Shown here: positions 12,118 to 37,592 of the stretch, in pieces
Layout of the letters: the number at the start of each line of letters is the position of its first letter
How positions within the stretch are numbered: position 1 is the stretch's first letter
Assembly (NCBI RefSeq): GCF_008831285.2
Contig: NC_045150.1
Location: 8,816,001 to 8,880,000 of the forward strand
From: Nymphaea colorata
Taxonomy: Eukaryota; Streptophyta; Magnoliopsida; Nymphaeales; Nymphaeaceae
Reading direction: 5' to 3'
Length of the DNA: 64,000 nt
The notes under the pieces: generated by a model
Told to the model about the DNA's origin: nothing
The model's input: only the letters and a program-made list of their open reading frames with translations
Database searches by the model: none
Translations under genes and position numbers: made by a program

Positions 12118-12929
12118 GGGAAAGTTTGTTTCCTGAGTCATGACTAAATAGTTTACAAACCACGATATCTGTACCTCATATTTTTACTTAATTTACACGC
12201 TAATGATGCTTTTTCGCAAGTGATTCAACAGAATCTTGACATGGTCCTTGTTTTCTATTAAATGAAAAAAGAACTTCTGTAGCCTTTTCTTGACTAGACC
12301 ATCCTTTCTTGAGCTGACATTGCTGCACAAATAAAGCCTCCGATATCCATAAGCAGTGAGCGTGTGTGGAACGAGTTACTTGTATTGCTATTACGTAACT
12401 GACGAGAGGTAAGGCAAAAGGCCGATCCGGTGCAGGCAATTAATTGGGATTGGACAAGATGTGCAGGTTAGCCTTTTTATCATTAACTGTCAACAACTTG
12501 ACTTTCAAATGTTCATCTTCATGTCGACATATCTACTACTTGATGAAACTGCTATTTAGACAGTTGGAAGTTGATGCTTATGCATGTCATGTGGTCAAGC
12601 ATCTATTTATTAAATCCTCAAATTAGAAGCTTACTTCTTTCTCCCTTCATATTGGGGACACCTCGTCTGAGGTTATGTTCTGGATGCCGAAGTATTAAGT
12701 TTTTTGTTTACGATGACAAAATATAGTACCAGCTCATACAATCTGTAATTAGTTTTAGATCAGAAGCATGAACTGGATACTATTCGCTCAAAAGCTTAGG
12801 CATCAATAACCACCGGAATGCTGCCTCTCGTTTCATTAGCCAGCCACATCAAGTCCTCCAATCGCGATATTTAGATATTTCCTCCAGCAAGCAGCAAAAA
12901 ACACAATATTAAATTTTTGAACTCCACAT

Positions 12930-13009
<80 letters not shown>

Positions 13010-14001
13010 AACAACGATGCATCATGTTTGTGTAAAAAACGTGCCAATCAAAAGATTTCAGACATTCCAATTACGAGAATTTATTCATCCATTTTACACA
13101 CAAACACTCAGCGGCGTGTGCCTACGCTCAAAATTATGTTGGGAAGTGAATAATAATGTAACAAGAGCACGTAGCTTAGATGAATACATCCTGTTGATGA
13201 CTAAATGACCCATATGCCTTTTATGCATCTTCAAATCATGTGACTGTTCAGGTTTATTAGACACTTTCAGACCCACATAAGGTGTCGACGACAAGCTTAA
13301 CCACTGGCAGCTGAAGTGCTAGGAATAAGTAGATTCCTATAAAGTGGAAAGCAAAGCAGTTTGGGACCGCCGATTCCTGGAAACAGGTGAGGTTCTCTCC
13401 ACGTCGCCTTTTACTCTACATCCGCACGGATAGAAAGATTATGTAAACAGTGCAAAGTAGATTTAGTGGCTCATTTATGTATTTGGGGATGAGCTGTCCC
13501 TCACATGACAACTCTATCTCTCCATTTGATTTTTTTTTTTTTTTTGCAACTGGAACAGAGAGAAATTTCTAGCTTAAGAATTCCTTGCATGTAAAATTTC
13601 CAATTTTTGCGACTATTTGGAGTTATTTTTTTCACATCGAAGACATATGCAGATCACCTCGGATGCCTATTCTGCTCTCTGCTGAAGACAATAAGGTATA
13701 TTAGCTACATGTTCTCCAGAGTGCCCAATCTTGCATCTTTTCAGGATAGTTAAGAATGCAAGGTGACCATGAAGGACTCGCAAGCAAAGAGGAAGTTTGA
13801 GCTGAAACTGAAATTTGGAAGACAAAAAGGGAAATAAAAAGTCCTCTATGCACTGAAGCAGTTACAAGGAGTTGCATTTTTTACTAAACAAGTATGAAGA
13901 ATCAGCCGATAATCCACAAAAACTCGACGAATTACCCAAATTTATTTTTCGAGGGATGAAGACAACCATTAAATGTTTACAGATTTCCCGCAATAGCAGC
14001 A
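12118..14001. repeat. Shared 3' flank of MAX2, unit A copy
   Basis: Aligns piecewise with 31,695-34,050 of unit B over its whole length. No convincing gene is present. A 60-codon frame ending KHLFIKSSN at 12,626 has a counterpart ending identically at 32,196, but upstream codons disagree in frame and residues. The microsatellite at 12,935-13,008 is shorter in unit B. At its position unit B carries the extra MITE at 32,637-33,025. Confidence 0.7.
12935..13008. repeat. Compound (TC)n(AC)n microsatellite
   Basis: About 20 TC units pass directly into about 16 AC units. The open frame across it (SLSLSL..HTHTHT) is not coding. Confidence 0.95.
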
Positions 14002-14374
14002 TCATTGGGTTCCATTTTCCTCTGTTTTCACGCAGTAGTTCACCTCAATTTCGCCTTCCGGATCATTACTCAGCTGGAAATAGCTCATGTTCACTACCAC
14101 GCCGACGGCCACGCTCATCTGGATGTTCAAAACATTTCCCGTGCACCATAATAAGCTTCCCAAGCTGCATCTCTCCAAGAGCAGGAACCACAGCAGCACT
14201 TCTACGTTCGCTAGCAAACATGAGGCCTAAAATTTGACAAGAAAATATACCAAGGTGAAAACCGCTTTGTCCCTCCGTTCCTTTGAATCCTAGGTACAGA
14301 TGTGCAACGGACGTTTTGATATTCCCCATGTCAAATAAAAAAGGAGGAGTGATTACAAGGAAGTAACGCCTCAT
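14002..14374 (-). other. Anonymous ORF block conserved in both units, downstream of MAX2-A
   Basis: Two overlapping minus-strand frames stay open here and in the unit B counterpart (34,056-34,377). One reads GEMQLGKLIMVHGK and ends ELFPAE in both copies. The other reads CSxGSLLWCTGN, then MSYFQLS, and ends NGTQ in both. Substitutions between copies are as common in one frame as the other, so I cannot say that either is translated. It begins about 200 bp beyond the MAX2 stop and could be MAX2 3' UTR or a small independent gene. Family not recognised. Confidence 0.35.
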
Positions 14375-14579
14375 CCTAACTCAGCTGCATCACTATATTT
14401 TCAAACGAGGCATTATTTTGGGTACTCTCTACTTTTGTTGCACCCTCTCCGCAGGGTCGAAGGCTGTTGGACCGTGCTAAAACGTCGTCTACGGAAGCAG
14501 GATCAGAGAGAAGAAGAAGAAGAAGAAAGGAGAAAATATAATAGAATCGTCTCTATCATGTCTTGTGAATCTCTATCGC

Positions 14580-16760
14580 TCAGTCCGGGATAGGACGGTG
14601 AATCAGCTCATGCTCAAACCGTAACCACGAGTCCTCTCTCATCTCCGTGCTCATGTCATTCTCTGGCGCAGGGTAGTAGTCCACCCTGAACTGCATTTCC
14701 CGGAGGTTTCGGACCCTCAGAAACATTTGGAAAAAATGTGCATAACATGTTCCATGTACGAAAAGCCTCCTCAGCGTGACGCATCTCGACAGCAGGCCTG
14801 CCGCCGGCCTCGTAAGGCTCCTTCTGTTCATAGCGCTATCATGGAGAGGCCAGTAATCAAGTTGATTGAGCTCCAGTTCTTCGATCCCGTGCAGGTAGAA
14901 CCTCTCCCACTGGTCAACATCCGTCTGCCCGGGCGGCGCGCTCAGCGCGTACCCAGTCACCTCCCCACAATCCAGATTCATCTTTGAGAGACGGGGGTAC
15001 CGCACCAGCGAATTCAAACCGAATGCAGGCATGGTGAGATTCGCCCAGAGCCTGCAGTCACCCTCCACCTTGATCTTAATCTCTTGTAGCGCCGGGCAGT
15101 ACGTCAGACCTGCCGCGGCGAGTGGCATTAGAAGCTCCCCTACTGCTATCCACAGTGACAGTGAGCGCAGACGAGGCCATGTCTTTGACCAGAACTCGCT
15201 TCCTGCCTTCTTGCTGCTCTCGCAATCAGAACTACACTTCCACATCCTCTTCATGAAGCCATCAGCCTCACTTCCCCAGGATCCATTGATACTATAATCA
15301 GTTCCGCAATTGGCAAATCCGTGGACTTCATTCGCTTCCGAGCAACAATTCAGATCAAAATCTTGAGTGTTCTTCTCCGCCGCATACTCGGAGTCGGGCG
15401 CGCCCCAAACGCAATCAACGTGCAGACGTTCTACCCTGCCCCTGATTGGCTCCAGTGCTTGCAGCGAGCTTGCCGCATTTAACTGCTTGCAGCACGATAT
15501 CCCTACATCGACCAAGGTCTTCCTCAGACAGCAAACCATGCTCATGACGCCGTAGCTAGAGATGCCATGACACCCATGGATTTCGAGCTTCGAGAGGCGA
15601 GGACAGCCGCGGGCAATGGCGATCAACCCAAGATCAGTGAGGTCGCCTGAGTTCTTGATGCACAGCGACTCCAAGCCCATGCAGAGCGCAATCCCATCCG
15701 AGCGAGGCGCATCGCCTCTGCAAATGCCATGAAACTGTCCGAGCTTCAGCGACCGCAGACGTCGACACTTGGAACCAAGCACCTCCAGCGCCACGCCGGC
15801 GCCCCTGACATTGTGGCAGACGTCCAGGGTGAGGTCCTCAAGGTCCGGTAGAGCGATGAACATCTCCTCCAGCGCTTGGCCGCTGATTCTGGCGTCCTCA
15901 TGCGAGAACCCATCGGCATCAGGGTCGGAGCGCGGGGAGGAGAGAGAGGAGGCATCTGCAAGGTGAACGTGCCGGAGCTTGTTGCAATTGGTGGCGATGG
16001 AGAGCAGGGCGACATCGCCAACAAAGTCTAAGCAGCGAGGGTCGAAGCGGCAAGAGGCCAGGAGGTGGAGGAGGTTGGGACAAGCGGCGGCGATGGCCTG
16101 GAGCTCCTGGGATTGGAAGCCATCTGTGGAGAGGATGAGGAGGTTCAGATGGGTGAGGGCCGATGCTGAAGCAGGATGGGCCTGAAGGGCCGCCGGGATA
16201 TCTTCCGTCCAGCAGTAGAAATGAGAGAGGTCCAGGGAGGAGAGGGAGGGGCAATGAGCGAAAAGCGGGATTAGGTCGGAGCCGGCGGGCACAGTTATGC
16301 GTTGGTGGAAGCGGACGAGCTTGACGGAGCGAAGGAAAGGGAAATAGCATGCGAGGATCTGGACGGTGGCAGGGTGGCGGGAGTAAAAGGTGAGGGAGGT
16401 GACTTTGGGGAAGCGCTGGGCTAGGAAGGCGAAGCGATGGGCTCCCTCGGAAAGGGGGTCCGGGGGGAAGAGACAGAGAGGATGGCCCCAGGGGGAGAAG
16501 AACGAGAGGTCAAGGTTGGTGACAGAGGGGAAGCAGGAAGGAAGACGATCGAGGTTTCCGACGTAGCCACGGAGGGAAAGGGTGGTGCGGGAAGAGCGGT
16601 CCGCCTTCGCCCATTTCCGGCAAACGAGCGACATGGAATTGCGGCTTCGGATGTCCGTCACCAGGGAGAAGATGATGGACAGAATCTCGTCCGGCAGGTC
16701 ATGGAGATGGGTTCTGGGCGGGGACAAGGAGGTGCCGGCGGTCGCTGTCTCCGACGGCAT
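14580..16760 (-). CDS. MAX2: MAX2/D3-type F-box LRR protein, divergent copy (MAX2-A)
   Basis: 726 codons without intron, against about 693 in Arabidopsis MAX2 and 720 in rice D3. I start at MPSETATAG (16,760) because unit B has the same start and the in-frame extension to 16,868 is not conserved. An N-terminal F-box (residues about 19-60, LHDLPDEILSIIFSLV then SLVCRKW) should bind the SKP1 subunit of an SCF ubiquitin ligase. Leucine-rich repeats fill the rest, with family signatures such as FYCWTEDIP, KNSGDLTDLGL, LGQFHGIC and APENDMSTEM. MAX2 proteins act in the nucleus with D14 or KAI2 receptors to degrade SMXL/D53 repressors. Odd: the last 137 residues differ from copy B at 40 positions, many normally conserved (WPLHDS for WPPQDR, GTCYAHF for GTANEHF, FRVDYY for LREDYY), and the terminal helix ends HRPIPD with two prolines. 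The terminal Asp is kept. The frame is open, so it is either a functional variant or early in decay. Confidence 0.92.
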   Translation of the reverse strand: MPSETATAGTSLSPPRTHLHDLPDEILSIIFSLVTDIRSRNSMSLVCRKWAKADRSSRTTLSLRGYVGNLDRLPSCFPSVTNLDLSFFSPWGHPLCLFPPDPLSEGAHRFAFLAQRFPKVTSLTFYSRHPATVQILACYFPFLRSVKLVRFHQRITVPAGSDLIPLFAHCPSLSSLDLSHFYCWTEDIPAALQAHPASASALTHLNLLILSTDGFQSQELQAIAAACPNLLHLLASCRFDPRCLDFVGDVALLSIATNCNKLRHVHLADASSLSSPRSDPDADGFSHEDARISGQALEEMFIALPDLEDLTLDVCHNVRGAGVALEVLGSKCRRLRSLKLGQFHGICRGDAPRSDGIALCMGLESLCIKNSGDLTDLGLIAIARGCPRLSKLEIHGCHGISSYGVMSMVCCLRKTLVDVGISCCKQLNAASSLQALEPIRGRVERLHVDCVWGAPDSEYAAEKNTQDFDLNCCSEANEVHGFANCGTDYSINGSWGSEADGFMKRMWKCSSDCESSKKAGSEFWSKTWPRLRSLSLWIAVGELLMPLAAAGLTYCPALQEIKIKVEGDCRLWANLTMPAFGLNSLVRYPRLSKMNLDCGEVTGYALSAPPGQTDVDQWERFYLHGIEELELNQLDYWPLHDSAMNRRSLTRPAAGLLSRCVTLRRLFVHGTCYAHFFQMFLRVRNLREMQFRVDYYPAPENDMSTEMREDSWLRFEHELIHRPIPD

Positions 16761-17545
16761 CTTTCCACAGGAGCGGCGGCGGTGGTGATGATGGTCGCGG
16801 CTACTGCCGGTTAAGGATCTCACGCACAGAGATATGCTGCCGATAGCAGAAAACGAAGACGTTCCCACGTTAGCGATAGTGAACTATGCGAACATAGAAA
16901 CGCCGGCAGTACGCGTTGGCAGCGGTCCAAGACGGTGATTGGGGTCGGCGGTGGTTTCCTATTCGAGAATTCAGAGAGAGGCAATAGTGGTGGCGGTGGT
17001 AGATCTCCAAGGCGAGGCAGCATCACCAGCGACGATCTCCACGGGCATAGCAGATACCAGCAGCAACCGCGGAATACAATTCCCTCAGGAAGAGGGCCGT
17101 GAAGGTGGAGTATCCGACGGGCTTGCCTGCACCATGGCGCTGGTGGTGCCTCGGCGCTTGAGAGACGGAGTCTCAGGCACACGAAAGAGGGAGGGACTCT
17201 CCTTCTGGAAGAGGGAGGGGAGAACTTTGTGAGGGGCCACACTTGCAGAAGGACCTTCACCCTAATTCTAATAGGGTCGGTGAGATGGCAAAACGTTCAT
17301 CCAAGGGGATGGCTTTTTTTTCGGTGGTTCTCAAGTTTCTGTTGCTGTCTCCTCAGGAACTCTACTTCCAGGAGAAGGGACGAGTCCGATGGCCTACTAC
17401 CAACCGTGGCTTTACTAGAAGTCCAAAAAAGTGACCGGTAAAATCTGATCTACCCCACTCTTTCCAGTGCTCAGGATTGGGTTTCTGTTTTTCCTTTTTC
17501 CTTTGTTTTTTAGTGCGAGAGTGCGTTTCCGAATCAGATAACGAT
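16761..17545 (-). promoter_or_regulatory. 5' leader and promoter region of MAX2-A
   Basis: Aligns with 36,837-37,592 upstream of MAX2-B. The duplication ends at about 17,545, at words near CCGAATCAGATAACGA. A minus-strand open frame (16,820-17,260) shares CCWYLLCPWRSS, then PRLGDLPPPPL, then NRKPPPTPITVL with the frame at 36,896-37,312 of unit B, which suggests an upstream ORF or simply retained homology. No clear TATA box was singled out. Confidence 0.45.
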
Positions 17546-22216: not shown

Positions 22217-22467
22217 GCGGCCTTTCACATGGTGAAGGCATAATTACTAGTTTATATGGGCCACCATCTTCTATATTTAATAATTTGCTCTATGTGCTTC
22301 TGAAGCAAGCTTGCTGGTGCTCATCCAAAATGACATGTAAAAGAATCTGATGCGACCTGTTCTGACAACACGAGGCAATTCTTCCTAAATGCAAACGTTG
22401 AAGCTAAACATAAAAGAAAGTTAATCTAGTTATGCCTGGGCTACTAGTCTGTCGGATCGCATGGCCT
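22217..22467. repeat. Shared block of the duplication, unit B copy
   Basis: Counterpart of 9,534-9,815. The last five bases (GGCCT, 22,463-22,467) are the left target duplication of the copia insertion. Confidence 0.65.
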
Positions 22468-22847
22468 TGTTATGGAAAGAGGATAAACACGCTGCATTTT
22501 TATAAGTTGAAAGAAGATAGGAGAGATTAATGCCATCACGAGTTTCTCTATGTGGGATAAGTTGCAACCTCATGTTCTACTCGATAAGAAGCCATCTTGA
22601 AAATCTCTGGATAGCTCAACATTTATCCTTATCCCCTGTCTCTTCCCTGTCTTTATAAAGACTAGAATGTAACACAACAAGGGTAACAGAGCAGTATAAT
22701 GAACTCTTTCCTCGTGGATGTAGGTTGTAATGCCGAACCACGTTATGTGCCTCTTTATCTTTCTAATGCCTTACGTAATGTTGTTTGCCTCTTTATCTCT
22801 CTAATGCCTTATTACTCTGTTTCTATCCCACTCCTTGCTTCTTAACA
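22468..22847 (+). repeat. 5' LTR of the copia element
   Basis: 380 bp, TGTTATGG...TTAACA. A palindromic GTCTTTATAAAGAC contains the TATA box (22,654-22,659). An internal duplication of GCCTCTTTATCTxTCTAATGCC makes it slightly longer than the 3' LTR. Confidence 0.92.
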
Positions 22848-22859
22848 TGGTATCAGAGC
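22848..22859 (+). promoter_or_regulatory. Primer-binding site
   Basis: TGGTATCAGAGC directly follows the LTR and is complementary to the 3' end of plant initiator methionine tRNA, the usual copia primer. Confidence 0.9.
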
Positions 22860-23406
22860 TCAGAGACTATCGTCGTCGATTCCCCAAGCTGTGTACTGCT
22901 TGAAAGATATGAGAAATAGCCGTCGCTCTCGTTCGTCGCCGGAGATCTCTGGGTTTAGAACACCGCTGCACAGTCCTCTGTTAGATAGTTCTTTCAGACC
23001 CACAAGGCTGCACGGTCCCTGAGCAACTGCTGTCACTGCTAGGAGAGCGCTGTCCTCCTTTGTTCTTTTATGCACAGAAGCCAACCGGTGGATGAAACGT
23101 GAAGCCAACCGGTGGATGAAACGTGATTCCCTGGGTGCTGCCCATCTCGTCTCCCTTCTGTGCCTTTTTCTTACACGTTCCTTGTTGTCTTCATCATAGC
23201 CCGTCTGCAACTCAAGACGAAGCTGAGTTGTGTTTTTAGCTCAATCGAGTTGAAGGTTAGGTGTCACTCTGCTGTGGGCGACGCTGTGAAGCTGACAGAA
23301 CCTGAGACGAGGCCAAGCCTCATTGCGTCCTCAAATTCCTTACAGATTTGGTTTTCTGTTTGTTTTCTTGGTGGTGAAGAAGCAAGGCTGATTTGGAAGA
23401 AGTCGG

Positions 23407-24258
23407 TTGTCTGGTAGCATTCTATCTTATTTAAGCGTTTGCAATTCAAAGAATGGGCCATCCCACCAAGGCAATAACACTTTGAAAATTACCTCACAAC
23501 CTCTCACTGTCCCAAACTATTTAAGCTGGGCCAGACTGTTTCTAAGCAGTCATTCAAAGGTCGGATATATCAATGGTGACATAAAGCCACCAGCGAAGAA
23601 TGATCCAAAGTATCGTGAGTGGGAGTGTGAAAATGACATGGTTATGTCATGGCTTAGTAATTCCATGGATTCCTCTGTTGTTAATATTTTTCTTTACGTG
23701 GAGACGGCAATGGATATTTGGGACAACCTGAAAGAATTATTTGGTGAGCAGAACAATCTTGCTCGTGTTTATGAAATTCAAAATGAGATCGCTCAACTTA
23801 CTATGGGAGATAAAGATATTACTCTCTACCTTGGTCATATGTGCAGCCTATATGATGAATTACTTCAGTATCGTCCAGTCACTTCAAATCCGAAAGTATA
23901 TAAAAAAAGATTTGATGAAGACAAGATTTTTAAGGTCCTTGCTGGACTTGGAAGAGAATTTGAGACCCTTTGCAGCCAGGTACTTAAGTCTAGTCCTCTG
24001 CCATCTTTTAATAATGTGTGCCAAATGATACAACGTGATGTGGCTCGAAGGAAAGTTATGAATGTTCCTTCAAAACTCGATGCCATCAAAGAAAATAGTG
24101 ATAAGATGGTATGTTGTACAAAAGGCAACAACAAACAAAGCAACTTCAAACCAAGTGCCGACAGCTCTAATCACCAAAGGAATCAATCTCGTTGGAAATG
24201 CACCCATTGCAAGAAAACAGGGCACACTTGGGAACTTTGTTGGGAGTTGAGTGGATGA
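23407..24258 (+). pseudogene. copia gag, with nucleocapsid zinc knuckle
   Basis: 283 open codons. The front part (LTVPNYLSWARLFLSSH, then EWECENDMVMSWLSNSMD) is the UBN2-type copia Gag. Near the end CTHCKKTGHTWELC is a CX2CX4HX4C zinc knuckle for RNA binding. A TGA at 24,256-24,258 interrupts a frame that otherwise runs on in phase into the protease part, so it is a mutation rather than a natural Gag end. Confidence 0.85.
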
Positions 24259-25402
24259 CTGAACAGAGAAAAATCTTCAAGGCCACCAGATTTTGCGAAC
24301 TTTGTGACTAAAGATCATCTTGAGAAATTTTTTCAGAAATTCACAAAGACTACCAACCTCATTACGTCTCAACCTGTTGGGAACTCGAGTGAAGGTACGA
24401 ACTTTGCTTTAATGACAATTTCCAAAAGTTTACCCTGGGTGATTGATGCTGGAGCTACTGATCATGTAACTGGTGACCCAACAAACTTAGGTGAGATAGA
24501 CAAAGAACAAAAACAACTTATCTTTATTGTTGATGGGAGTCCGATTAGTGTTGATGGCATTGGCAAAACGAGTTTTTTTTTACAAAAGAATTAAGTCTAC
24601 TGTCTTATATGTTCCCAAAATAAGTACCAGCTTGATATTTGTTAGCAAATTAACCAAATCTCATGATTGCTTGGTTATTTTCTCATCAAAGGAGGTGATT
24701 TTTCAGGAACAGGGCACAAAGAAAGTGATTGGTAGAGGTCGAGAACATGGTGGTCTCTATGTCAAGGATTCATGCTATGTTAGTCTTCTTACTAGCAATA
24801 AAAAATTGAACGAGTCTGACTACAAAAAATGGCACGCCTGTCTTGGACACATATCAGATAGCAGTTTGCAATGGCTTGTTCCCAACCTCGTCACAGAATA
24901 TTGGGCTTGTGATGCTTCTGAATTCGCAAAATTTACAAGGTTACCATTTCACACTTCTAGTGAAAGGTCTTTCAATTTTTTTGATCTTGTTTTCTCTGAT
25001 ATTTGGGGACCTGCTCCTAAGGATTCTTATTTAGGATTCAAGTACTATGTTTCCTTTATTGATAATAAATCTAGAATGACATGGATATATTTTCTTCAAA
25101 ATAAAAGTGAGGTGCCTAAGGTATTTGAAGAATATTATAGCATGATTTTAACTCAGTACGGCATTAAAATTAAAAAACTCTGGTCTGACAATGATGTAGA
25201 GTATGTCAATGACACTCTAAAGTCATTCTTGACAAAGAAAGACATTGAACCTCAATACACCTGCTTAGGGACGCCTCAGCAAAATGGCATCGCTGAAAGG
25301 AAAAACCATCAATTGCTTAATATTGTTCGTGCTCTTATGATGCATATGAATGTCCCTACTCATTTCTGGACAGATGTTATTGCCACTGATGGTTTTAAAT
25401 GA
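24259..25402 (+). pseudogene. copia protease and integrase region
   Basis: After the TGA the same frame continues to the aspartic protease site WVIDAGATDHVTG, where the usual D-S/T-G is D-A-G. A T-run at about 24,571-24,580 shifts the frame. The next frame carries the GAG-pre-integrase motif (KKWHACLGHI) and the integrase core: D in SDIWGPAP, D in LWSDNDVEY and E in GIAERKNHQL, so all three acidic catalytic residues are present. It stops at 25,402 after MNVPTHFWTDVIATDG. Confidence 0.85.
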
Positions 25403-25890
25403 AGTTCGGCAGATTAAACCATGTTCACTCGTATTCATGAATCTAAAATTATTATCTTATTGGTCTATGTTGATGACATTATATCACTCGTATTCATGAT
25501 GGCATATTTATGCTTCGTGTGAAGACATTTCTTAACAAACAGTTTGAGATCAAGGATCTAGGAGTCTTACGGTACTTCTTAGGGATTGAAGTTGCACATT
25601 CAGATAAAGGTATTTTCATATGTCAGAGAAAATATATTCTGGATCTACTTAAGAAAACATGTAACATTGAAGCAAAAGCTGTCGACACACCTCTTGAAAT
25701 AAATTGCAAATTGAAAACTAATGAGGGTGACCTTATCGAAAATGTCCAAAGCTTTCAAAAGCTTGTTGGGAAACTCATTTATCTTACTGTCACCAGAACA
25801 GATATCATGTATGTTGTCAGTGTTATAAGCCAATTCATGCACAAGCCCAGGTTTTCACATGTCGAAGCAACTCATAGAATCCTTTGATAT
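25403..25890 (+). pseudogene. copia reverse transcriptase, N-terminal part deleted
   Basis: The integrase jumps almost directly to LLVYVDDII, the RT active-site YVDD (about 25,463-25,480), so the RT fingers and much of the palm are lost. A 16-base duplication (TCACTCGTATTCATGA) brackets the YVDD segment. The rest (KQFEIKDLGVLRYFLGIEVA, then CQRKYILDLLKKT) is intact to HRIL, followed by TGA. Confidence 0.85.
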
Positions 25891-26061
25891 CTTAAAGGAA
25901 CTCCCGGGAAAGGAGTTTTAATGAAGCGAGGCCAGACATTAGATGTTGTTGGATATTGTGATGTTGATTGGGCAGGCGACCCAAATGATAGGAGATTAAC
26001 TTTTGGATACTGCACCATTGTTGGAGGTAATCTCGTCACATGGAAGAGTAAAAAATAGTCT

Positions 26062-26424
26062 GTGGTTGCCAAGTCAAGCGTCGAAGCTGAATACAGAGCC
26101 ATGGCAGCATGCACATGTGAATTGATATGGATTAAAGCCTTACTAAAGGATATGAATGTTGAAATTAGTGGACCCATGAACTTAATGTGCGACAACATGG
26201 CTGCTATCTACATTGGTGTTAATCTGGTGTTTAATGAACGAACCAAGCATATAGAAGTTGATTGTCATTTCATAAGGGAGAAGATCCAAGATAACACCAT
26301 TCAAACACTTCATGTCAAAAGTGACAAACAACTAGCCGACATATTTACCAAAAGTTTGGCAAAGGAAAAACATCAAACTATAATTCACAAGTTGGGACAG
26401 ATAGATATTTGTGCACCAACTTGA
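26062..26424 (+). pseudogene. copia RNase H end
   Basis: SSVEAEYRAMA, then CDNMAAIYI, then DIFTKSLAKEKH are the typical end of copia pol. The preceding TAG at 26,056-26,058 replaces the usual Gln of KKQSVVAKSS. The frame ends just before the purine-rich tract. Confidence 0.85.
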
Positions 26425-26433
26425 GGGGTAGAT

Positions 26434-26806
26434 TGTTATGGAAAGAGGATAAACACACTGAATTTTTATGAGTTGAAAGAAGATAGGAGAGATTAATGCC
26501 ATCACAAGTTTCTCTCAATGGGATAAGTTGCCACCTCATGTTCTAAATGATTCTCTCGACAAAAAGCCATCTCGAGAATCTCTCGATGGCTCAACATTTA
26601 TCCTTATCCCTTGTCTCTTCCCTCTCTTCCCTGTCTTTATAAAGACGTGAATGTAACACAGCAAGGGTAACAGAGCAGTATAATGAAGTCTTTTCCTCTT
26701 TCCTCGTGGATGTAGGTCGTAATGCCGAACCACGTAATGTCGTGTGCCTCTTTATCTCTCTAATGCCTCATTACTCTGTTTTTATCCCACTCCGTGCTTC
26801 TTAACA
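26434..26806 (+). repeat. 3' LTR of the copia element
   Basis: 373 bp, TGTTATGG...TTAACA, followed by the second GGCCT. TATA box at 26,638-26,643. It differs from the 5' LTR by scattered substitutions and several short indels. Confidence 0.92.
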
Positions 26807-28044: not shown

Positions 28045-29337
28045 CTATTTCATCCCAAAAGAAGGCGGCAGGAGGCGACAGCGTATTTGAAAACCCAAGT
28101 AGTCCATAGGCAAGGCAATAGCCTTACACTCAAAACACACTTTCGCAAGAAGCACCGTGGTTGGATCTGCATGAAAAAGAGAAAGATGACACTTGAATGA
28201 ATTAAAAGAAAGACCTGAGATGGGCTCAAAAACCGGAATGATGAGCCAAGTTCTCACATTCTGTTGACGAGAAGCAGTGTTAAACAAGAGAAAGTCATCA
28301 GCATATTGGAGGGTGGAGAAGACTTGCAAGTGGGAGAGAGAATGCAGAGTGATGAAGCCAACGACCATAGCGTGACGAAGTAAAACAGAAAAACACTCGG
28401 CAACAAGGTTGAAAAGTAATGGAAATAGTGAACAACCCTGTCGGAGGCCGTGACCGATATGGAAGAATTCGCCACACATCCTATTGAAGGTGACCGCCAG
28501 CTGGGCCCCAGTGACAAGCGAGAGGATCTATTGCTGAAACGACAGACCAAAAGCAAGGCGGGTAAGGAGGTCAGATAGGACCTCCCAACTAACCAAATCA
28601 AAGGCCTTGAAAATGTCCAACTTAAGGATGAAGGAGGGAAGACGTAAACTGTAAAGGGAATAAACTACCTCGTTGGCTATGACAACAGCGTCATGCAAAC
28701 GTCGACTCTTGATGAATGCAACCTGAAAGGGATTAATGATAGAAGGCAAAACATGTGCCAGCCATATAGAAAGCAACTTAGCGATAATCTTGTAGGGAGT
28801 GCCTAAGATAGAGATCAGACGAAAGTGACTAACGTCCATAGGGTTAGGACGCTTAGGAACCAAGACACATGTGACTTAAATAAATTCCTTAAGAAAGATA
28901 GAGTTTGAGGTAAATTCGGCACAAAACTCGAGCACATCAACGCTACAAGCCTCCCAGAATGTGCGAAAAAACTCAATAGGGAAACAATCAATGTCGAACG
29001 CTTTACCAGAGCCGAGGGCCCAAACAACATCCTTGATTTCTTGGTGCAGGAAGGGTTGTTCAAGAGTGATCACGCAAGAGACAGAGAGGTGAATGTTTGG
29101 CAGCGGGGCACGAAAGTGAAGAGGTTTAAAGTAGAAATCACGGAAATAAGTGGTCAAAGCCAGAAGGATGTCATCACCAAGAAATTCTCTATGCCCAATA
29201 ACCATGGACTGGAGCAATGTCTGACGGCGTCTCTGAGAGGCAGCCAAGTGAAAAAAATGAGAATTTTGGTCATCATGTGAAAGCCAACCCAACTTAGAAC
29301 ATTGCTGCCAATAATCTGCCACTCCTGAGTAAGACAC
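28045..29337 (-). pseudogene. LINE ORF2 reverse transcriptase
   Basis: Three same-strand open pieces make one RT_nLTR domain. 29,337-28,876 holds the domain entry (ALGSGKAFDIDCFPIEFFR, degraded from the usual GKAPGPDGF). 28,863-28,528 has LDIFKAFDLVSW, with the first catalytic Asp. 28,479-28,045 has GLRQGCSLFPLLFNLVAE and the active-site YADD in LQYADDFLLF. In-frame stops near 28,874 and 28,528 separate them. Confidence 0.88.
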
Positions 29338-29537
29338 TGGAGAAAAAGGAGACGAGAAGACTGATCCGCAGATAAATTGTCAGATGATTGGAGGAACAGA
29401 ATCTCCTCATCCCAAACGATCACCTCATAAAACTTATCGTTCCAAAAAATACGCTTCCAGACAATAACCTTCCTTCTGATGCAATGCAGCTTACGCGAGA
29501 GCCTAAAAGTAGCCCACCTACCATTGATGGTGCGAGC

Positions 29538-30220
29538 CTACCACCTAGGGATGGCATCAACAAAGGACTCATCCCAAAGCCACCAAAACCTTAAAGTGGA
29601 ACCGGGTGCGCCGGTACCAGCCCTACCCCGAAGAAGTGAAAGCAGCAGTTGAGCATGATCAGACAAATGTCTCGGTCCTAAGACCAAGGAAGATGAGGGA
29701 ATAGCATAAAACAACTCTGGCGAGAGGAAAACACGGTCCAACCTCTGGAGAATGAAAGGGTTTCTATTGTTGGACCAAGTAAACTTTTCATTATTCAAAG
29801 GCATGTCGAAAAGGCCGAACCCATCAACGAACGAGCGAAAAACTGACATAGACGGACCAGAAGTGATAGGAGAGGAGGAGTCACGAGGACTAAGGAGACA
29901 GTTGAAATCATCTACTAAAAGCCACGGTGAAGAAGCAAGCTCACGAGCATAACGAAGCTCATCCCACAGCTGGTCACGCAAGACCCTTACGCAAGGGCCA
30001 TAAACCGCAGTAACTAAGACTGGGTCGTTGAGCCAGAGACCATTGAGGACGGCCGAAATAGAGAATTTACCAACATACAGAACAACCCCGCAAGGGGCGG
30101 AGACCAAGCCAGTAGAATGCCACCAGCAACACTATTAGCTGGAAGGTACCCAAAGGAAGGCTGACGCAACAAGGTATGAATGCAGGCATGAGATACAACA
30201 GATAGTTTGGTTTCTACCAC
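29538..30220 (-). pseudogene. LINE ORF2 endonuclease
   Basis: EEP/APE-type endonuclease: VVETKLSVVS at the front, then after one frameshift near 30,110 the piece VSAPCGVVLYVG, WLLVDDFNCLLSPRD (usual GDFN here DDFN), FTWSNNRNPFILQRLDRVF and LSDHAQLLLSL with the catalytic SDH. In active LINEs it nicks target DNA to prime reverse transcription. Confidence 0.85.
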
Positions 30221-30269
30221 GATAAGTAAGGAAGACCCATCCTAACGGACCCAAGAAGAGATGTATCTA

Positions 30270-31440
30270 TGCTGATAACGGGCACTCAGGCCATGCACAT
30301 TCCAACAAGCAACCCTCATGGGGAAACCTTATGAAGTAACGCATGTCTAGCCATCCTAGCAGCACTGGGAGGGAGGATGGAGGCCGCGGAAGCCCTGATC
30401 CTACGCAATTCCCACCGCAACCTGGCAAGGCTGGAGTGGGAGGCCGGCGAAACAGTGGCAACAAAAGATGAACGCAAAAAATCAAGTTGTTCAAGTGAAA
30501 GCGAGACCCTAAGAGAGGCAAGCGCATCTAAAAGTGAAATGCTCAATTCAGCATGTAACAAAAGAGAAACAAGTGGCAACCTATCAGGCGAGAGATGACA
30601 AACAGAAGGTCTGGTGGTGGGACTAGGCAACCGAGAAGAAGAGGGAGGGGAGGACGGGGAAACAGGGGTGGGTGCATAATGAAAACAGAGAGGAGGGAAA
30701 ACAATGCCAACAAAAGGGATGTGGGGGGGCAGGGCTAGCGGGGGGAAGTGGCAAGCAGGTGGGAGTGTAAGGACAGTCGCGACTGAGTTTAGGGAGCAAT
30801 GCATGCAGGGCAGGCAAGAAGGAGGCAATACTACCGCCGATAGAAACAAAAGACAACCAGAGTAGGTGGGCGAAGGAGGTGGTTTTGGTAGGCAGAGGGG
30901 GCAAAGGGGGCCCCGTTACATGGGTAAAAAGCAAGGAAAAGGCAGAGGAGGGAGACGAGTTGACTGGGGGTGAAGCATGGACAGAGGCCAAAACAACCGA
31001 AGCCGCAGACGAGAAAAAGTGAACAACAACAACAGCCCCTAGGGTGCAACCTCAAGACGATGGGAGCATGGGGACACACAAAAAGGCAGCAAGTGGGACC
31101 ACCAGTGCATAAGGTGGCACAACGTCCAACGGGCAGGCAACCGACAATGAAGGCGCCAAAGACCGGATGGCACCAAGAGCAAACAGAGCGGCTAGCAGCA
31201 ACGGGTTAGGGCATTTGGAGGTGGACGAGCGTGAACCCCCAGCTCGCAAAGAAGAAAAAAAAAAGGAGCAAGCAGGGTACCTCAGGGGAGCACGACGTAG
31301 TGCAGGCAGGGCACCATCGAGGAGGCAAGGACGGCTCCAGCGGTGAGGGAAGCAAGGGCCGGAGCTGCGATGGCGGGAGCTTGGCATGCAAGGAGAAATG
31401 GTGTATCTATCCACGTAGGCTGAAGACCCACGGAACCTCA
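30270..31440 (-). pseudogene. LINE ORF1-like region
   Basis: Several overlapping minus-strand frames rich in Pro, Ser, Leu and Cys lie upstream of the endonuclease, where ORF1 belongs. No CCHC knuckle or RNA-recognition fold could be read, so the assignment rests on position. Confidence 0.45.
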
Positions 31441-31489: not shown

Positions 31490-32636
31490 CTTGTAGTGTT
31501 AAAATATTACTTTTGTAATGGAGTTGGAATGATATTTATTCAATCTATGTCACGCCCCATGTTCTATAGATACGGATCATTCAACGTCCCATAATGTCAC
31601 TTTGTGGATTCTGAACCACAAGAAAACTTTATCTTGGTGTATATCCTCTTTACCTATAATAGGTGCATTTGTTTCCTTCTGCCACTTTAGGTGTGATAGT
31701 TTGTTTCGCGAGGCATGACTAAATAATTTCAAACCACGCTCTGTACCTTACGTTTGTACTTCCAAGTTACACGCTAATTGTGCTTCTTCGAAAGTGATAC
31801 AAACAGAATCTTGACATGGGCCTCGTTTTCTAAGAAATGAAAAAGTTCTTTAGCCTTTTCTTAGCTAGACCGTCATTGCTTGAAGTGATATAGCTGCACG
31901 AATAAAACCTCCGATGTCCATTTGCAGTTACAGAGCGTGCGTAGGACGAGTTACTTGTATTGCTATTACTGATTGACGAGGAGGCAAGAAAAGACCGATC
32001 TGGCGCAGGCAGTCAACGTATATTGGAGAAGATATGCAGGTTAGCCTTTTTATCGTTTTCTATCAGCAACTTGACTTTCAAGTGTTCATCTTCATGTTGG
32101 CAAATCTACTTGATGAAACTGCTATTTGGTCGGTTGGAAAGTGAGGCTTGCACACGTCTTGCGGTTAAACATCTATTTATTAAATCCTCCAATTAGAAGC
32201 TTCACTTCTTTCGCCCTTCATATTGGAGACGCCTCTTCTGGGGTTACGTTCTGGAGCTAAAGTTTTATTTAGGAAGGGTATCCTCCAATTAGAAGCTTAC
32301 TTCTTTAGCCCTTCACATTGAGGGACACTTCCTCCAAGGCTATATGTTCTGGATCCTAAGGTTTTGTGCAGGAAGTGCGATAACTTTTTTGTTTACGGTG
32401 ACATAATATAGTGCCAGTTTATACTATCAATAGTTAATTATATGATCAGAAGCATGAACTGAATGGATACTATTCGCTTAAAGCCTAAGCATCAATAACC
32501 ACGGCAATGCTGCCTCTTATTTCATTAGCCAGCTTCATCAAGTCCTCCGATTCAGGTATTTTGATATTTCCTAAAGCAAACAGCAAAAACAAAAAATATT
32601 GCAAAAATTTTTTGAACGCCACCCCCCCACAATCCA
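31490..32636. repeat. Shared flank, unit B copy, with an inverted copia fragment
   Basis: TGTTAAAATATTACTTTTG at 31,498 matches unit A at 10,550. About 130 bp at 31,552-31,683 are the reverse complement of 10,955-11,086 in unit A (for example CCTATAATAGGTGCATTTGT against ACAAATGCACCTATTATAGG). From 31,695 the block runs parallel to 12,118 onward. A short tandem repeat of TCCAATTAGAAGCTT.ACTTCTTT.GCCCTTCA lies at 32,188-32,320. No gene is visible. Confidence 0.6.
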
Positions 32637-33025
32637 GTAGGGCTGTTCAGTTCCAACTCTGCTCGAGTGTCTTGAAAGAAACTTGAACTCAGCTCGAGTG
32701 TCTTAAAACTGGAGAATTTTATTAACAAATTATTTTTTAAGGAAAGAGGCGGCATATAGATTTGAAAATGGAACCTCCCATGTACCAGTAATACTCATTT
32801 GAGTAATCTACTTTGTTTCATAATTTTATGAAACTTATTTCATATATTTTCTTTCTGGAGCTTAACTGAATTCAAGCCAACCAAGCCTACTTAACTTGAG
32901 TTCGACTCGTTTAGACTGTCAAATTCATTTCTTAACTTGAACTCGATTAATTTAATAAACTAGTCGAGTCCGAACCAAGTTTATGGAGCAGTACGAGTTA
33001 AGCTCGACTAGTTGAACAGCCCTAC
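32637..33025. mobile_element. MITE with 13-bp perfect terminal inverted repeats, unit B only
   Basis: GTAGGGCTGTTCA (32,637-32,649) is the exact reverse complement of TGAACAGCCCTAC (33,013-33,025). The interior contains GCTCGAGTGTCTT and GAGTTCGACTCG-like words like the element at 3,830. Unit A is uninterrupted at this point (TTTTTGAACTCCACATGTAAG, about 12,913), so this is a clean presence/absence difference. Confidence 0.85.
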
Positions 33026-34055
33026 CCTCCACATATAAGTCTCTCTCTTTGTCTCTCTCAAGAGACCCAAAACACAGACACAAAGAGACTCAGAGTCTGT
33101 GCAAAAAAAACGAACGTGCCTATTAAAAGATTTCCGACATTCCAATTACGAGAATTTATTCATCCTTTACACACAAAAGGCGGCGTGTGCCTACGCTCAA
33201 AATTATGAGGGGATGTGAATAATAGGCACGTAGCTTAAATGAATATATCCTGTCGATGACTAAAAGACCCATATGCCTTTTATACATCTTCAAATCATGA
33301 GACTGTCAAGGTTTGTTAGACATTTTGAGAGTTGCAAGTGACACGCTTAACCACCGGCACCTGAAGCTCTCGGAGTAAGTATAGATGCCCGTAAAGTGGA
33401 AAGCAAAGCAATTGGGAGCGCCGATTCCTCAACACAGGTTAGGTTCTTTCCACATCGCATTTTACTTTAAATCTGCACGGAGATTTATAAGAAGACTTTG
33501 TACCAATGCAAAGTAAGATTTAGTGGCTCATTTATGTATTTGGGGATGAGCTGTCTCTCACATGACAATTCTCTCTCTCGATTTGATTTTCTTTTGGAAC
33601 TGGAACAGACAAATTTTACTTTAAGAGTTTCTTGAATGTAAAATTTCCTATTTTTGTGACTACGAGTTTTTCTTCTCACATCGAAAGATATTTGCAGATC
33701 ACCTCTCAGCCTTATCCTGCCCTCTGCTGGAAGACAAGAAAGTATATTAGCTACATGTTCTCCAGAATGCCTAATCTTGCATCTTTTGTGGATAGTAAAG
33801 AATGCAACGTGGCCATGAAATCATTTAAGGACTTTCAAGCAAAGACGAAGTTTTGAGATGAAACTGGAATTTGGAAGACAAAAGGGGACATAAAAAGTCC
33901 TCCATGCACTGAAGCAGTTACAAGGAATTACATTTTGACTAAACAAGTACAAAGAATCAGCCGATAATCCCACAAAAACTCGACGAATTACCCAAATTTA
34001 TTTTTCGAGGGAAGAAGACGACTTCGAATGTGACAAATTTCTCGCAATAGCAGCA
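33026..34055. repeat. Shared 3' flank of MAX2, unit B copy
   Basis: Aligns with about 12,917-14,001 of unit A, including GATTTCxGACATTCCAATTA and TTAGTGGCTCATTTATGTAT. No gene is visible. Confidence 0.65.
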
Positions 34056-34377
34056 TCACTGGGTTCCATTTTTCTCTGTTTTCATGGAGTTCACCTCAAT
34101 CTCGGCTTCCGGTTCATCACTCAGCTGGAAATAACTCATCTTCACTACAACGCCGGAGACCATGCTCATCTGGATGTTCAAAATATTTCCCGTGCACCAT
34201 AATAAGCTTCCCGAGCTGCATCTCTCCAAGAACAGGAACCTCAGCAGCGCTTCTACGTCCGCTAGCGACGTATGAGGCCTCCAATTCGACAAGAGATACC
34301 AAGGTGAAATCCTCTTTCTCCTCCAATCCTTTGAATCCTAGGTACAGATGTGCAACGGAGGCTTTGATATTCTCCAT
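34056..34377 (-). other. Anonymous ORF block conserved in both units, downstream of MAX2-B
   Basis: Counterpart of 14,002-14,374. The frame from ATG at 34,377 reads MENIKASVAHLYLGFKG, contains GEMQLGKLIMVHGK and ends ELFPAE (86 codons). The alternative frame ends EIEVNSMKTEKNGTQ (78 codons). It lies about 280 bp beyond the MAX2-B stop. Whether it is 3' UTR or a small gene is undecided. Confidence 0.35.
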
Positions 34378-34655
34378 GTTAAAAATAAAAAAGAAGTGTG
34401 ATTATATTGTCCAAATGAATCTTGCCGGTACAAGGTTGCAACGCCTCATCCTAACTCAGCTGCATCATCAATATATTTTCACACGAGACTTTATTTTGGA
34501 TACTCTGTACTTTTGTTACACCCTCTCCGCAGGGTCAAAAAACTGTTCGACTGTGCTAAAACAACTTCTACAGAAGCAGGATCAGAGAGAAGGGGAAACA
34601 GAAAGGAGAAAATGCCATCGAATCGCCTCTGTTATGTCTTATGAATCTCTATCGC

Positions 34656-36836
34656 TCAGTCAAGGAGAGAACGGCGATTCAGCTCATTCTCAAACCGTAA
34701 GCAAGAGTCCACTCTCATCTCCGTGCTCATGTCATTCTCTGGCGCAGGGTAGTAGTCCTCCCTGAGCTGCATATCCCGGAGCTTTGGGATCCTCAGCAAC
34801 ATTTTCAGAAAATGTTCATTAGCTGTTCCATGTATGAAAAGCTTCCTCAGCGTGACACATTCCGAAATCAGGCCTACTGCCGGGAGCGTAAGGCTCCTAC
34901 TGTTCATTTCCCTATCTTGGGGAGGCCAGTAATCCAGTTGATTGAGCGCCAGTTCTCCGATCCCATTCAGATAGGACCTCTCCCACAGGCTAATATCCAT
35001 CTGCCCGACCGGCGCGCTCAGCGCGTAGCCAGTCACCTCCCCACAATCCAGATTCATCTTTGAGAGACGGGGGAACCGCACCAGCGAATTCAAACCGAAT
35101 GCTGGCATGGTGAGCTTGGCGCAGAGCCTGCAGTCACCCTCCACCTTGATCTTCATCTCTTGCAGCGCCGGACAGTACGCCAGACCTGCTGCGGCGAGTG
35201 GCATTAGAAGCTCCCCCACTGCTATCCACAGTGATAGTGAGCGCAGACGAGGCCATGTCTTTGACCAGAATTCGCTTCCTGCCTTATTGCTACTCTCGCA
35301 ACCAGAACTGCACTTCCACTTCTTCTTCATGGGGCCATCAGCCTCACTTCTCCTGGGTCCATGGTTACGATACTCAGTTCCGCCATTGGCAAATCCATGG
35401 TCTTCATTCGCTTCCGAGCTGTAATTCAGATCAAAATCTCGAGTGTCCTTCTTCTCCGCTGCATCCTCGGAGTCGGGCGCGCCCCAAACGCAATCAATGT
35501 GCAGATGTTCTACCCTGTCCCTGATTGGCTCCAGTGCCTGCAGCGAGCTTGCCGCATTTAACTGCTTGCAGCACGATATCCCTACATCGACCAAGGTCTT
35601 CCTCAGACAGCAAACCATGCTCATGACGCCGTAGCTAGAGATGCCATGGCACCCATGGATTTCGAGCTTCGAGAGGCGAGGACAGCCGCGGGCAATGGCG
35701 ATCAACCCAAGATCAGTGAGGTCGCCTGAGTTCTTGATGCAGAGCGACTCCAAGGCCCTGCAGAGCGCAATCCCATCCGAGCGAGGCGCATCGCCTCTGC
35801 AAATGCCATGAAATTGTCCGAGCTTCAGCGACCGCAGACGACGACACTTGGAACCGAGCACCTCCAGCGCCACGCCGGCGCCCCTGACATTGTGGCAGAC
35901 GTCCAGGGTGAGGTCCTCGAGGTCCGGCAGAGCGATGAACATCTCCTCCAGCGCTTGGGCGCTGATTCTGGCGTCCTCATGCGAGAACCCATCAGCATCA
36001 GGGTCGGAGCGCGGGGAGGAGAGAGAGGAAGCATCTGCAAGGTGAAGGTGGCGGAGCTTGTTGCAATTGGTGGCGATGGAGAGCAGGGCGGCATCGCCAA
36101 CAAAGTCAACGAAGCGAGGGTCGAAGCGGCAAGAGGCCAGGAGGTGGAGGAGATTGGGACAAGCAACGGCGATGGCCTGGAGCTCCTGGGATTGGAAACC
36201 ATCTGTGGAGAGGATGAGGAGGTTCAGATGGGTGAGGGCCAATGCTGAAGCAGGATGGTCGTGAAGGGCCGCCGGGATATCTTCCGTCCAGCAGTAGAAA
36301 TGCGAGAGGTCCAGGGAGGAGAGGGAGGGGCAATGAGCGAAAAGCGGGATTAGGTCAGCGCCGGCGGGCACAGTGATGCGTTGATGGAAGCGGACGAGCT
36401 TGACGGAGCGAAGGGAAGGGAAATAGTAGGCGAGGATCTGGACGGTGGCAGGGTGGCGGGAGTAGAAGGTAAGGGAGGTGATATTGGGGAAGTGCTGGGC
36501 TAGGAAGCGGGCGACGAAATGGGCGCCCTCGGAAAGGGGGTCCGGGAGGAAGAGAGGATGGCCCCATGGGGAGCAGAACGAGAGGTCGAGGTTGGTGACG
36601 CTGCGGAAGCAGGAAGGGAGACGATCGAGGTTTCCGACGTTGCCACGGAGGGTGAGGGTGGTGCGGGAAGAGCGGTCAGCCACCGCCCATTTCCGGCAGA
36701 CGAGTGACATGGAATTGCGGCTTCGGGTGTCCGTCACCAGGGAGAAGATGATGGAGAGAATCGCGTCCGGCAGGTCGTGGAGGTGCGTTCTGGGCGGGGA
36801 GAAGGAGGTGCCGGCGGTGGCTGACTCCGATGGCAT
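34656..36836 (-). CDS. MAX2: MAX2/D3-type F-box LRR protein, canonical copy (MAX2-B)
   Basis: 726 codons, intronless, from MPSESATAG (ATG at 36,836-36,834). The longer in-frame start at 36,923 is not shared with unit A and is rejected. The F-box (LHDLPDAILSIIFSLV) is at residues about 19-60, followed by LRRs. A low-conservation acidic loop (about 475-545, DSEDAAEKKDTRDFDL) sits between repeats, as in known MAX2 proteins. The C-terminal region keeps the family text: LDYWPPQDR, LFIHGTANEHF, LREDYYPAPENDMSTEMRV, and a terminal helix ending RRSLLD with the final Asp. In rice D3 that helix contacts the D14 receptor and changes position during signalling. Expected role: substrate receptor of SCF in strigolactone and karrikin responses, in the nucleus. 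Nothing in the frame suggests loss of function. By sequence this is the likelier keeper of the ancestral role. Confidence 0.95.
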   Translation of the reverse strand: MPSESATAGTSFSPPRTHLHDLPDAILSIIFSLVTDTRSRNSMSLVCRKWAVADRSSRTTLTLRGNVGNLDRLPSCFRSVTNLDLSFCSPWGHPLFLPDPLSEGAHFVARFLAQHFPNITSLTFYSRHPATVQILAYYFPSLRSVKLVRFHQRITVPAGADLIPLFAHCPSLSSLDLSHFYCWTEDIPAALHDHPASALALTHLNLLILSTDGFQSQELQAIAVACPNLLHLLASCRFDPRFVDFVGDAALLSIATNCNKLRHLHLADASSLSSPRSDPDADGFSHEDARISAQALEEMFIALPDLEDLTLDVCHNVRGAGVALEVLGSKCRRLRSLKLGQFHGICRGDAPRSDGIALCRALESLCIKNSGDLTDLGLIAIARGCPRLSKLEIHGCHGISSYGVMSMVCCLRKTLVDVGISCCKQLNAASSLQALEPIRDRVEHLHIDCVWGAPDSEDAAEKKDTRDFDLNYSSEANEDHGFANGGTEYRNHGPRRSEADGPMKKKWKCSSGCESSNKAGSEFWSKTWPRLRSLSLWIAVGELLMPLAAAGLAYCPALQEMKIKVEGDCRLCAKLTMPAFGLNSLVRFPRLSKMNLDCGEVTGYALSAPVGQMDISLWERSYLNGIGELALNQLDYWPPQDREMNSRSLTLPAVGLISECVTLRKLFIHGTANEHFLKMLLRIPKLRDMQLREDYYPAPENDMSTEMRVDSCLRFENELNRRSLLD

Positions 36837-37592
36837 CTTTACGCAGGAACGGCGGCGGTAGCGATGGTGGTCGCGGACTCGTGGCAACTGCCGGTTTAGG
36901 ATCTCACGCACAGGGATATGCAACCGATAGCAGAAACTGAAGACGGTCCCACGTTAGCGATAGTGAACTGTGCGAACATGGAAACACACCGATAGTTGGT
37001 GTTGGCAGCGGTCAAGACGGTGATTGGGGTCGGCGGTGGCTTCCGATTCGGGGCCTGAGAGAGTGGCGATAGTGGTGGCGGTGGTAGATCTCCAAGGCGA
37101 GGCGGCATCACCGGCGACGATCTCCACGGGCACAGCAGATACCACCAGCAACCGCGGTGGTTGGTGGAATACAATTCCCTCAAGAAGAGGGCCGTGAAGG
37201 TGGAGTATCCGACGGGCTTGCCTGCGCCATGGCGCTGGTGGTGCCTCGGCGCTTGACCAGAGAGCGAGGAACCTGAGAGATGGAAGAGAGGGGAGAACTT
37301 GTTAGGGACCACAGTTTGAGAAGAACCTTTATCCTAACAGGGTCGGTGAAATGGCAAAAACGTGGTAGGGGATGGCCTTTTCTCTGGCTCTCGAATTCGG
37401 GTTACTGTCTCCTCTGGGATTCGACCACCGAGGTTAGGCACGAGCCCGGTGGCTCCACCAACCGAGGCTTTACTAGAAGTCCAAAAAAGGAAGAAGAGTA
37501 AAATCTGATCTACCCCACCCGTCGGTGCTCAGGATCAGGTTTCTTTTTTTCTTGGTGCCAACGTGCACTTCCGAACCAGATAAGTACGAAAT
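36837..37592 (-). promoter_or_regulatory. 5' leader and promoter region of MAX2-B
   Basis: Counterpart of 16,761-17,545. Similarity ends near CCGAACCAGATAAGTACGA (about 37,573-37,592), which marks the right edge of the duplication. A 138-codon minus-strand frame (37,312-36,896) shares three short peptide blocks with the unit A frame, so a translated upstream ORF is possible but unproven. Confidence 0.45.

Follow-up and report, generated by a model that had tools for sequence, protein, structure and literature searches.

Strigolactone and karrikin signals both act via the gene MAX2, one protein normally serving both pathways. In the known structures and models, the C-terminal face of its leucine-rich repeats (LRRs) receives the D14 or KAI2 receptor together with the SMXL target. 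Structures of the rice counterpart, DWARF3 (D3; PDB 5hyw, 5hzg, 6bro, 7sa1), are available, as well as that of an 'F-box protein' (PDB 9kkx_C), which we assume to be the Striga MAX2 whose cryo-EM study is cited in PMC13233607. The limits of the terminal helix in rice D3 are E693 and D720, and two regions of D3 are protected by D14 in HDX-MS, one of them comprising residues 593–608, which is also protected by D53 (as 595–606), and the other residues 684–709 (PMC10858650). In predicted models, Asp610 of AtMAX2 contacts the lysine of the RGKT degron motif of SMXL7 and SMAX1, and an Asp of the receptor (D167 in AtD14, D165 in KAI2) is placed against the arginine of that motif (PMC13233607). The FRGKT form is widespread among SMAX1 and SMXL7/8 proteins, and angiosperm SMXL3/4/9 lack it (PMC6728956).

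A survey of 54 species, with 57 MAX2 sequences in all, only very rarely came upon a species with more than one, ascribed such cases to recent duplication, and described the family as strongly pressed to stay single-copy and conserved (PMC5490202). In that survey, Bythell-Douglas et al. (2017) considered specialised versions of MAX2, perhaps serving DLK-type proteins, and reported no evidence for them (PMC5490202).

Two MAX2 Copies in Tandem

Two MAX2 copies, A and B, form a tandem duplication and are separated by about 20 kb on a contig of Nymphaea colorata (C13:8816001-8880000; this whole stretch of 64,000 nucleotides is the window, in which all positions below are counted). The coding sequence of MAX2-A (14580..16760, minus strand) is a single unbroken frame of 726 amino acids from ATG, plus the stop codon. 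That of MAX2-B (34656..36836, minus strand) is likewise intact, with 726 amino acids and a stop, and ends with NRRSLLD after a C-terminal region that is the more conserved of the two. Both copies are embedded in duplicated blocks delimited by self-BLAST as aligned pieces, without strand assignment (12120..17493 with MAX2-A and 31695..37551 with MAX2-B), which are 86.6% identical across 4542 columns, with two more pieces at 78–81%. The non-coding flanks differ at 12–15% of sites in the stretches tallied, similar to the synonymous divergence of the two genes, which is 0.126 overall. In a search of the whole 408-Mb assembly, the C-terminal 136 residues of A had two matches, MAX2-A and MAX2-B themselves.

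The space between the copies contains a copia-like element, judged by eye, at 22467–26806, with gag/pol-like frames (23407–25402) flanked by direct repeats (22467–22847 and 26433–26806), as well as LINE-like frames at 28876–30849. Before both copies there is a short frame on the minus strand, M(V/A)QASPSDTPPSRPSS-stop, at 17085–17135 and 37180–37230, which may represent a conserved uORF or an element of the 5'-UTR. The stretch 17001–17150 upstream of MAX2-A is 4% diverged, as opposed to 13% and 26% in the two adjoining 150-base windows. Within the genes, the A/B synonymous divergence of codons 161–460 (15381–16280 in MAX2-A, minus strand) is 0.083, below that of the rest (p = 0.028); gene conversion may have left its mark here.

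An N-terminal F-box is recognized in both copies (Pfam F-box_5, 38.2 bits in A and 35.2 bits in B, with a cut-off of 25.5); in MAX2-A it spans residues about 19–59 (16584..16706, minus strand). The closest solved sequence is 9kkx_C, matched by MAX2-A in phmmer with 749.5 bits (E = 3.5e-224) and by MAX2-B with 798.7 bits, followed by rice D3 with 594.7 bits (E = 2.2e-177) for A and 632 bits for B. Other plant F-box/LRR receptors score far below MAX2/D3 against MAX2-A (COI1 39.7 bits, TIR1 39.6 bits). By sequence, MAX2-A belongs to the MAX2/D3 family, as a member with a variant docking face. The features of a pseudogene are absent, the frame of 726 codons being intact and the core of the protein evolving at a dN/dS of 0.29, with neutrality rejected at p = 1.7e-5.

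Concentration of Differences in the C-Terminal Region

The initial annotation had reported 40 differences between A and B in their last 137 residues, and a recount gave the same number. These 40 of 137 compare with 56 of the 587 gap-free residues elsewhere (hypergeometric p = 1.9e-8, or 1.4e-10 without the variable loop 442–540). A likelihood scan blind to coordinates placed the best high-rate window at gap-free columns 607–723 (A residues 609–725), with 40 differences in 117 columns, a score that 0 of 60 shuffles reached. The same annotation had also held that B carries the Arabidopsis residue at most of the 40 sites. This is correct as a majority, although weaker than it was worded, since the Arabidopsis sequence agrees with B at 22 sites, with A at 6, and with neither at 12. 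The solved sequences lean in the same direction over the C-terminal sites, with 19 matches to B only vs 5 to A only for 9kkx_C, and 17 vs 8 for rice D3.

By the Nei-Gojobori method, the last 137 codons have a pairwise dN/dS of 1.23 and all other codons one of 0.38; dS is equal in the two parts (0.130 and 0.125, respectively). By segment, the synonymous divergence of 0.130 in the C-terminal region stands beside 0.183 in codons 1–160 and 0.156 in codons 461–589. A mutation hotspot in the C-terminal region was considered and rejected, as the synonymous rate there is ordinary. The total divergence of the region, 0.139, is at the level of the non-coding flanks (0.12–0.15).

The excess of amino acid changes in A is carried by the last leucine-rich repeats, residues 605–699 (14664..14948, minus strand), where the pairwise dN/dS is 1.49. 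In this segment, 18 A/B differences fall on sites identical in the outgroups, compared with 23.3 expected under drift (p = 0.0095), and in the whole C-terminal region 23 compared with 27.8 (p = 0.04). Of the 57 changes in the C-terminal region, 23 are transitions, fewer than the 174 of 306 changes in the flanks (p = 0.029). In severity, the A/B exchanges do not differ significantly from random ones (mean BLOSUM62 −0.40 vs −0.63, p = 0.19). Adjacent changes number 9 in this region vs 7.8 in shuffles, that is, without an excess, which is present in both flanks.

Polarity and Relative Rates

When polarized against two outgroups, rice D3 and 9kkx_C, the 40 C-terminal differences comprise 18 changes in A, 5 in B, and 17 unclear cases, whereas the 56 differences outside this region are split into 11 in A, 10 in B, and 35 unclear. 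At sites outside the C-terminal region where the outgroups agree, A and B depart from them alike (49 of 237 each). Relative-rate comparisons follow the same division. In the C-terminal region, A has 19 changes vs 5 in B against 9kkx_C (p = 0.004) and 17 vs 8 against rice D3 (p = 0.07); for residues 590–699, the counts are 16 vs 4 (p = 0.007) and 16 vs 6 (p = 0.03), and for residues 700–726 they are only 3 vs 1 and 1 vs 2, respectively. In the rest of the protein the two copies are nearly even, with 8 vs 9 against 9kkx_C and 9 vs 7 against rice D3.

The protein branch lengths are 0.336 for A and 0.110 for B in the C-terminal region, and 0.064 and 0.045 elsewhere, so that MAX2-B is also somewhat faster in its C-terminal region. 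The stem leading to the outgroups shows the reverse order (0.138 in the C-terminal region, 0.450 elsewhere), and its shortness in the former indicates that, until the duplication, the C-terminal region evolved more slowly than the remainder of the protein.

Codon Models

In the codon model, rice D3 and 9kkx_C are represented by their amino acids alone. A single clock is applied to A and B, as both arose in a single event in one genome. The core was defined as codons 1–441 and 541–589 (488 gap-free sites), leaving out the loop 442–540, the restoration of which changes little. Branch-specific dN/dS over the C-terminal codons, a check that the initial annotation had proposed and that was run here with the two protein outgroups, is 2.20 for A over the last 137 codons, compared with 0.29 in its core, and 0.60 for B, compared with 0.23. 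For the C-terminal region, a value of 1 in A is rejected at p = 0.0017, and equality of A and B at p = 0.002; for the core, a value of 1 in A is rejected at p = 1.7e-5. The difference between the C-terminal region and the core of B is non-significant (p = 0.098). A single omega fitted to the C-terminal regions of both copies is 1.39.

The estimate for A remains above 1 under several alternative settings. With the clock fixed to the flanks it is 1.97 (p = 0.0012), or 1.68 (p = 0.011) with the faster 5' flank; with one outgroup at a time it is 1.91 (p = 0.013) for rice and 2.10 (p = 0.003) for 9kkx_C; and p extends from 0.004 to 0.0006 as kappa is varied from 1.0 to 2.5. In null simulations with the outgroup parameters held fixed, the observed statistic was reached in 1 of 300. 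Among 11 windows of 100 codons, those mostly inside the loop being omitted, the excess in A is confined to 601–700, the only window clearly above 1 (2.78, p = 1.1e-4). Removal of residues 700–726 (leaving codons 590–699) raises the estimate to 2.52 (p = 0.0005).

Two results set the limits of this inference. When the 10 multi-hit codons of the C-terminal region, those with two or more changes, are dropped along with those of the core, the estimate for A falls to 1.57 and is no longer significant (p = 0.12). Since the C-terminal region has no excess of adjacent changes, this filter may be too strict; multi-nucleotide mutation was rejected as the cause on the same ground, yet it is this filter that removes significance. 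Without outgroups the test is powerless (p = 0.75), so the C-terminal result depends on two distant protein outgroups and on the equal clock for both copies.

Sites in the C-Terminal Face of MAX2-A

Codon 643 of MAX2-A (GCT, Ala; 14832..14834, minus strand) corresponds to Asp636 of rice D3 and, with a length of 693 for AtMAX2, to AtMAX2 Asp610. In the alignment, the acidic residue at this site is Glu in B and Asp in both rice D3 and 9kkx_C, and it is lost in A. Of the further replacements in A, M613T and S616D map to the protected region 593–608 of D3, whereas L691F, E693V, and V709E map to region 684–709. Several conserved residues are replaced in A by charged, polar, or otherwise misfitting ones (L617Q, L651R, P639L, P684R).

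The terminal helix region of MAX2-A, residues 700–726 (14583..14663, minus strand), aligns with E693–D720 of rice D3 and ends with HRPIPD. The terminal Asp and the STEMR block are kept in A, and 8 of the 27 residues differ between A and B. The two prolines that had been noticed near the end of A, as well as the retention of the final Asp, are both real, the prolines being residues 723 and 725, within the last four residues. The emphasis placed on them is not supported, since the excess of changes in A lies upstream, in the last LRRs, and codons 700–726 by themselves yield a dN/dS of about 1.05 for A and 1.16 for B, values near neutrality from 27 codons, which give little power. An account based on the prolines and the terminal helix was accordingly set aside, there being no A-specific excess in residues 700–726. 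Models of A and B predicted from two-sequence alignments are of very low confidence (mean pLDDT 40.7 and 33.2, respectively). In both of these models the last helix stops at residue 721, short of the prolines, and models this poor say little about any disruption of the helix.

Candidate Partners in the Same Genome

The genome contains one KAI2 (contig C9, 76% identical to AtKAI2) and one D14 (C3, 70–75% to AtD14), each found as two exon matches. A TAA was flagged in the first-exon match of KAI2; as residues 1–123 align without a stop, it is probably located at the exon edge. The Asp equivalent to AtD14 D167 and KAI2 D165 is kept in the alignment of both receptors. A cluster of hydrolases, DLK2/DLK3-like by similarity, is found at C1:31589000-31613100 (L025-L027). 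Two of its loci have both exons, a TGA being flagged in one of these, and the third is a fragment with an altered GH..PQL motif surrounding the catalytic His.

Among the potential targets, an SMXL7-like D2 exon (C5) has the degron motif FRGKT. Two other D2 exons are SMAX1-like, 60–63% identical to a piece of SMAX1, and have FRGRT (L012, C4 17.60 Mb) and TRRRT (L013, C3 22.23 Mb) instead; the SMAX1 orthology of these proteins is putative, being based on similarity. The remaining D2 matches examined look Clp-like; in one set of 11 matches, the examination covered all but two, on C1 and C13.

Functional Interpretation and Alternatives

A C-terminal region that has changed rapidly in A, within a gene that is otherwise intact, suggests a change of partner rather than simple decay. 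Our preferred reading, held tentatively and with somewhat less than even confidence, is that MAX2-A is a functioning tandem paralogue, the last LRRs of which were rewritten by selection, and that it prefers a receptor–substrate pair other than that of MAX2-B. MAX2-A would keep the F-box that joins it to SCF and most of the LRR solenoid, while positive selection would have rewritten the last leucine-rich repeats, that is, the face that receives D14 or KAI2 and SMXL. Through this remodelled face it would most likely favour a pair different from that of B, and MAX2-B would retain the standard, ancestral role. This is the simplest account of a constrained F-box/LRR core combined, in one copy, with a fast C-terminal LRR face. 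Observed are the intact frame, the constrained core, the raised replacement rate limited to the C-terminal LRRs, and the missing acidic residue at the predicted degron contact; that the MAX2-A protein is made, that its partner choice has changed, and the direction of such a change are inferred from these. A more specific proposal, in which MAX2-A couples SCF to a non-standard pair, with for example a DLK2/DLK3-type hydrolase or the SMAX1-like FRGRT/TRRRT targets, is doubtful. The initial annotation had left the choice between altered receptor choice, a competitor, and lost constraint; this interpretation is partly supported. Local remodelling under selection has support (dN/dS 2.2, p = 0.0017), qualified by p = 0.12 without multi-hit codons. 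It had further held that dN/dS near 1 over the whole A gene would indicate simple decay. No such pattern was seen, as the core of A, at 0.29, is well below 1; the gene as a whole is therefore not decaying, and whole-gene decay is ruled out by its constrained core.

The main rival, which we consider rather unlikely, is a local relaxation of constraint, under which the C-terminal LRRs of A became dispensable after the duplication and are drifting, with the rest of the protein held; MAX2-A could, for example, act via its F-box and core alone, or be at an early stage of loss. The pairwise C-terminal dN/dS of 1.23 and a total divergence equal to that of the flanks are consistent with such drift, and flank-level divergence is also expected if B was relaxed too, as the joint omega of 1.39 would allow. 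The loss of significance once multi-hit codons are dropped and the misfit replacements of conserved residues point in the same direction. However, in the outgroup-fitted models of the C-terminal region the replacement rate of A is 1.6 to 2.5 times neutral, the differences still shun outgroup-identical sites, and the spectrum of base changes is unlike that of the flanks; a strongly constrained core would also be odd if the output face had been lost. Lower in probability, and in our view unlikely, is that MAX2-A acts as a competitor, joining SKP1/cullin and perhaps binding receptor or substrate, failing to complete the ubiquitination of SMXL because both the degron contact (Ala643) and the docking face are changed, and thereby dampening B. 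The intact F-box and the lost acidic residue at the predicted degron contact agree with this, although the contact itself is a model prediction (PMC13233607).

Two further explanations concern the origin of the sequences, and both are highly improbable. Placement of two haplotypes of one MAX2 locus in tandem, as an assembly artefact, would agree with the assembly-wide search, which gave just two matches, separated by 20 kb on the same contig, but a synonymous divergence of 0.126 and flanks diverged by 12–15% are high for alleles, and transposon-like sequence, judged by eye, lies between the copies. It is just as hard to credit that the C-terminal region of A is an older sequence and the rest was homogenised by gene conversion. 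The lower synonymous divergence of codons 161–460 (0.083, p = 0.028) would fit such homogenisation, yet an older tract would raise synonymous divergence, and the value in the C-terminal region (0.130) is no higher than in codons 1–160, in codons 461–589, or in the flanks. A gene conversion boundary was rejected on the same evidence.

Comparison with Known MAX2/D3 Proteins

Both A and B match rice D3 over their own length as F-box/LRR proteins and share its terminal Asp and, probably, its final helix region. They differ from the solved sequences in the C-terminal region, where A departs from the residues common to rice D3 and 9kkx_C at 25 of 96 sites and B at 15 of 96; relative to 9kkx_C, the changes belonging to each copy itself are 19 in A and 5 in B. 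In titles and abstract openings, within a literature partly restricted to subscribers, no duplicated or divergent MAX2 of the A/B kind is described. The names MAX2a and MAX2b are already used elsewhere in that literature, so MAX2 duplication as such is not new. The recent MAX2 duplicates of a few angiosperm genomes, such as Populus, resemble the present case in having a second, recently arisen copy, and differ from it in that no copy with a remodelled C-terminal face is described in the accessible text (PMC5490202). A duplicate in which only the receptor/substrate face evolves fast would serve as a natural experiment to learn which residues of MAX2 determine the choice of partner, and MAX2-A makes it testable whether orphan DLK-type hydrolases use a dedicated MAX2. 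If true, the coupling of SCF by MAX2-A to a non-standard pair would represent the 'specialised version of MAX2' raised in PMC5490202.
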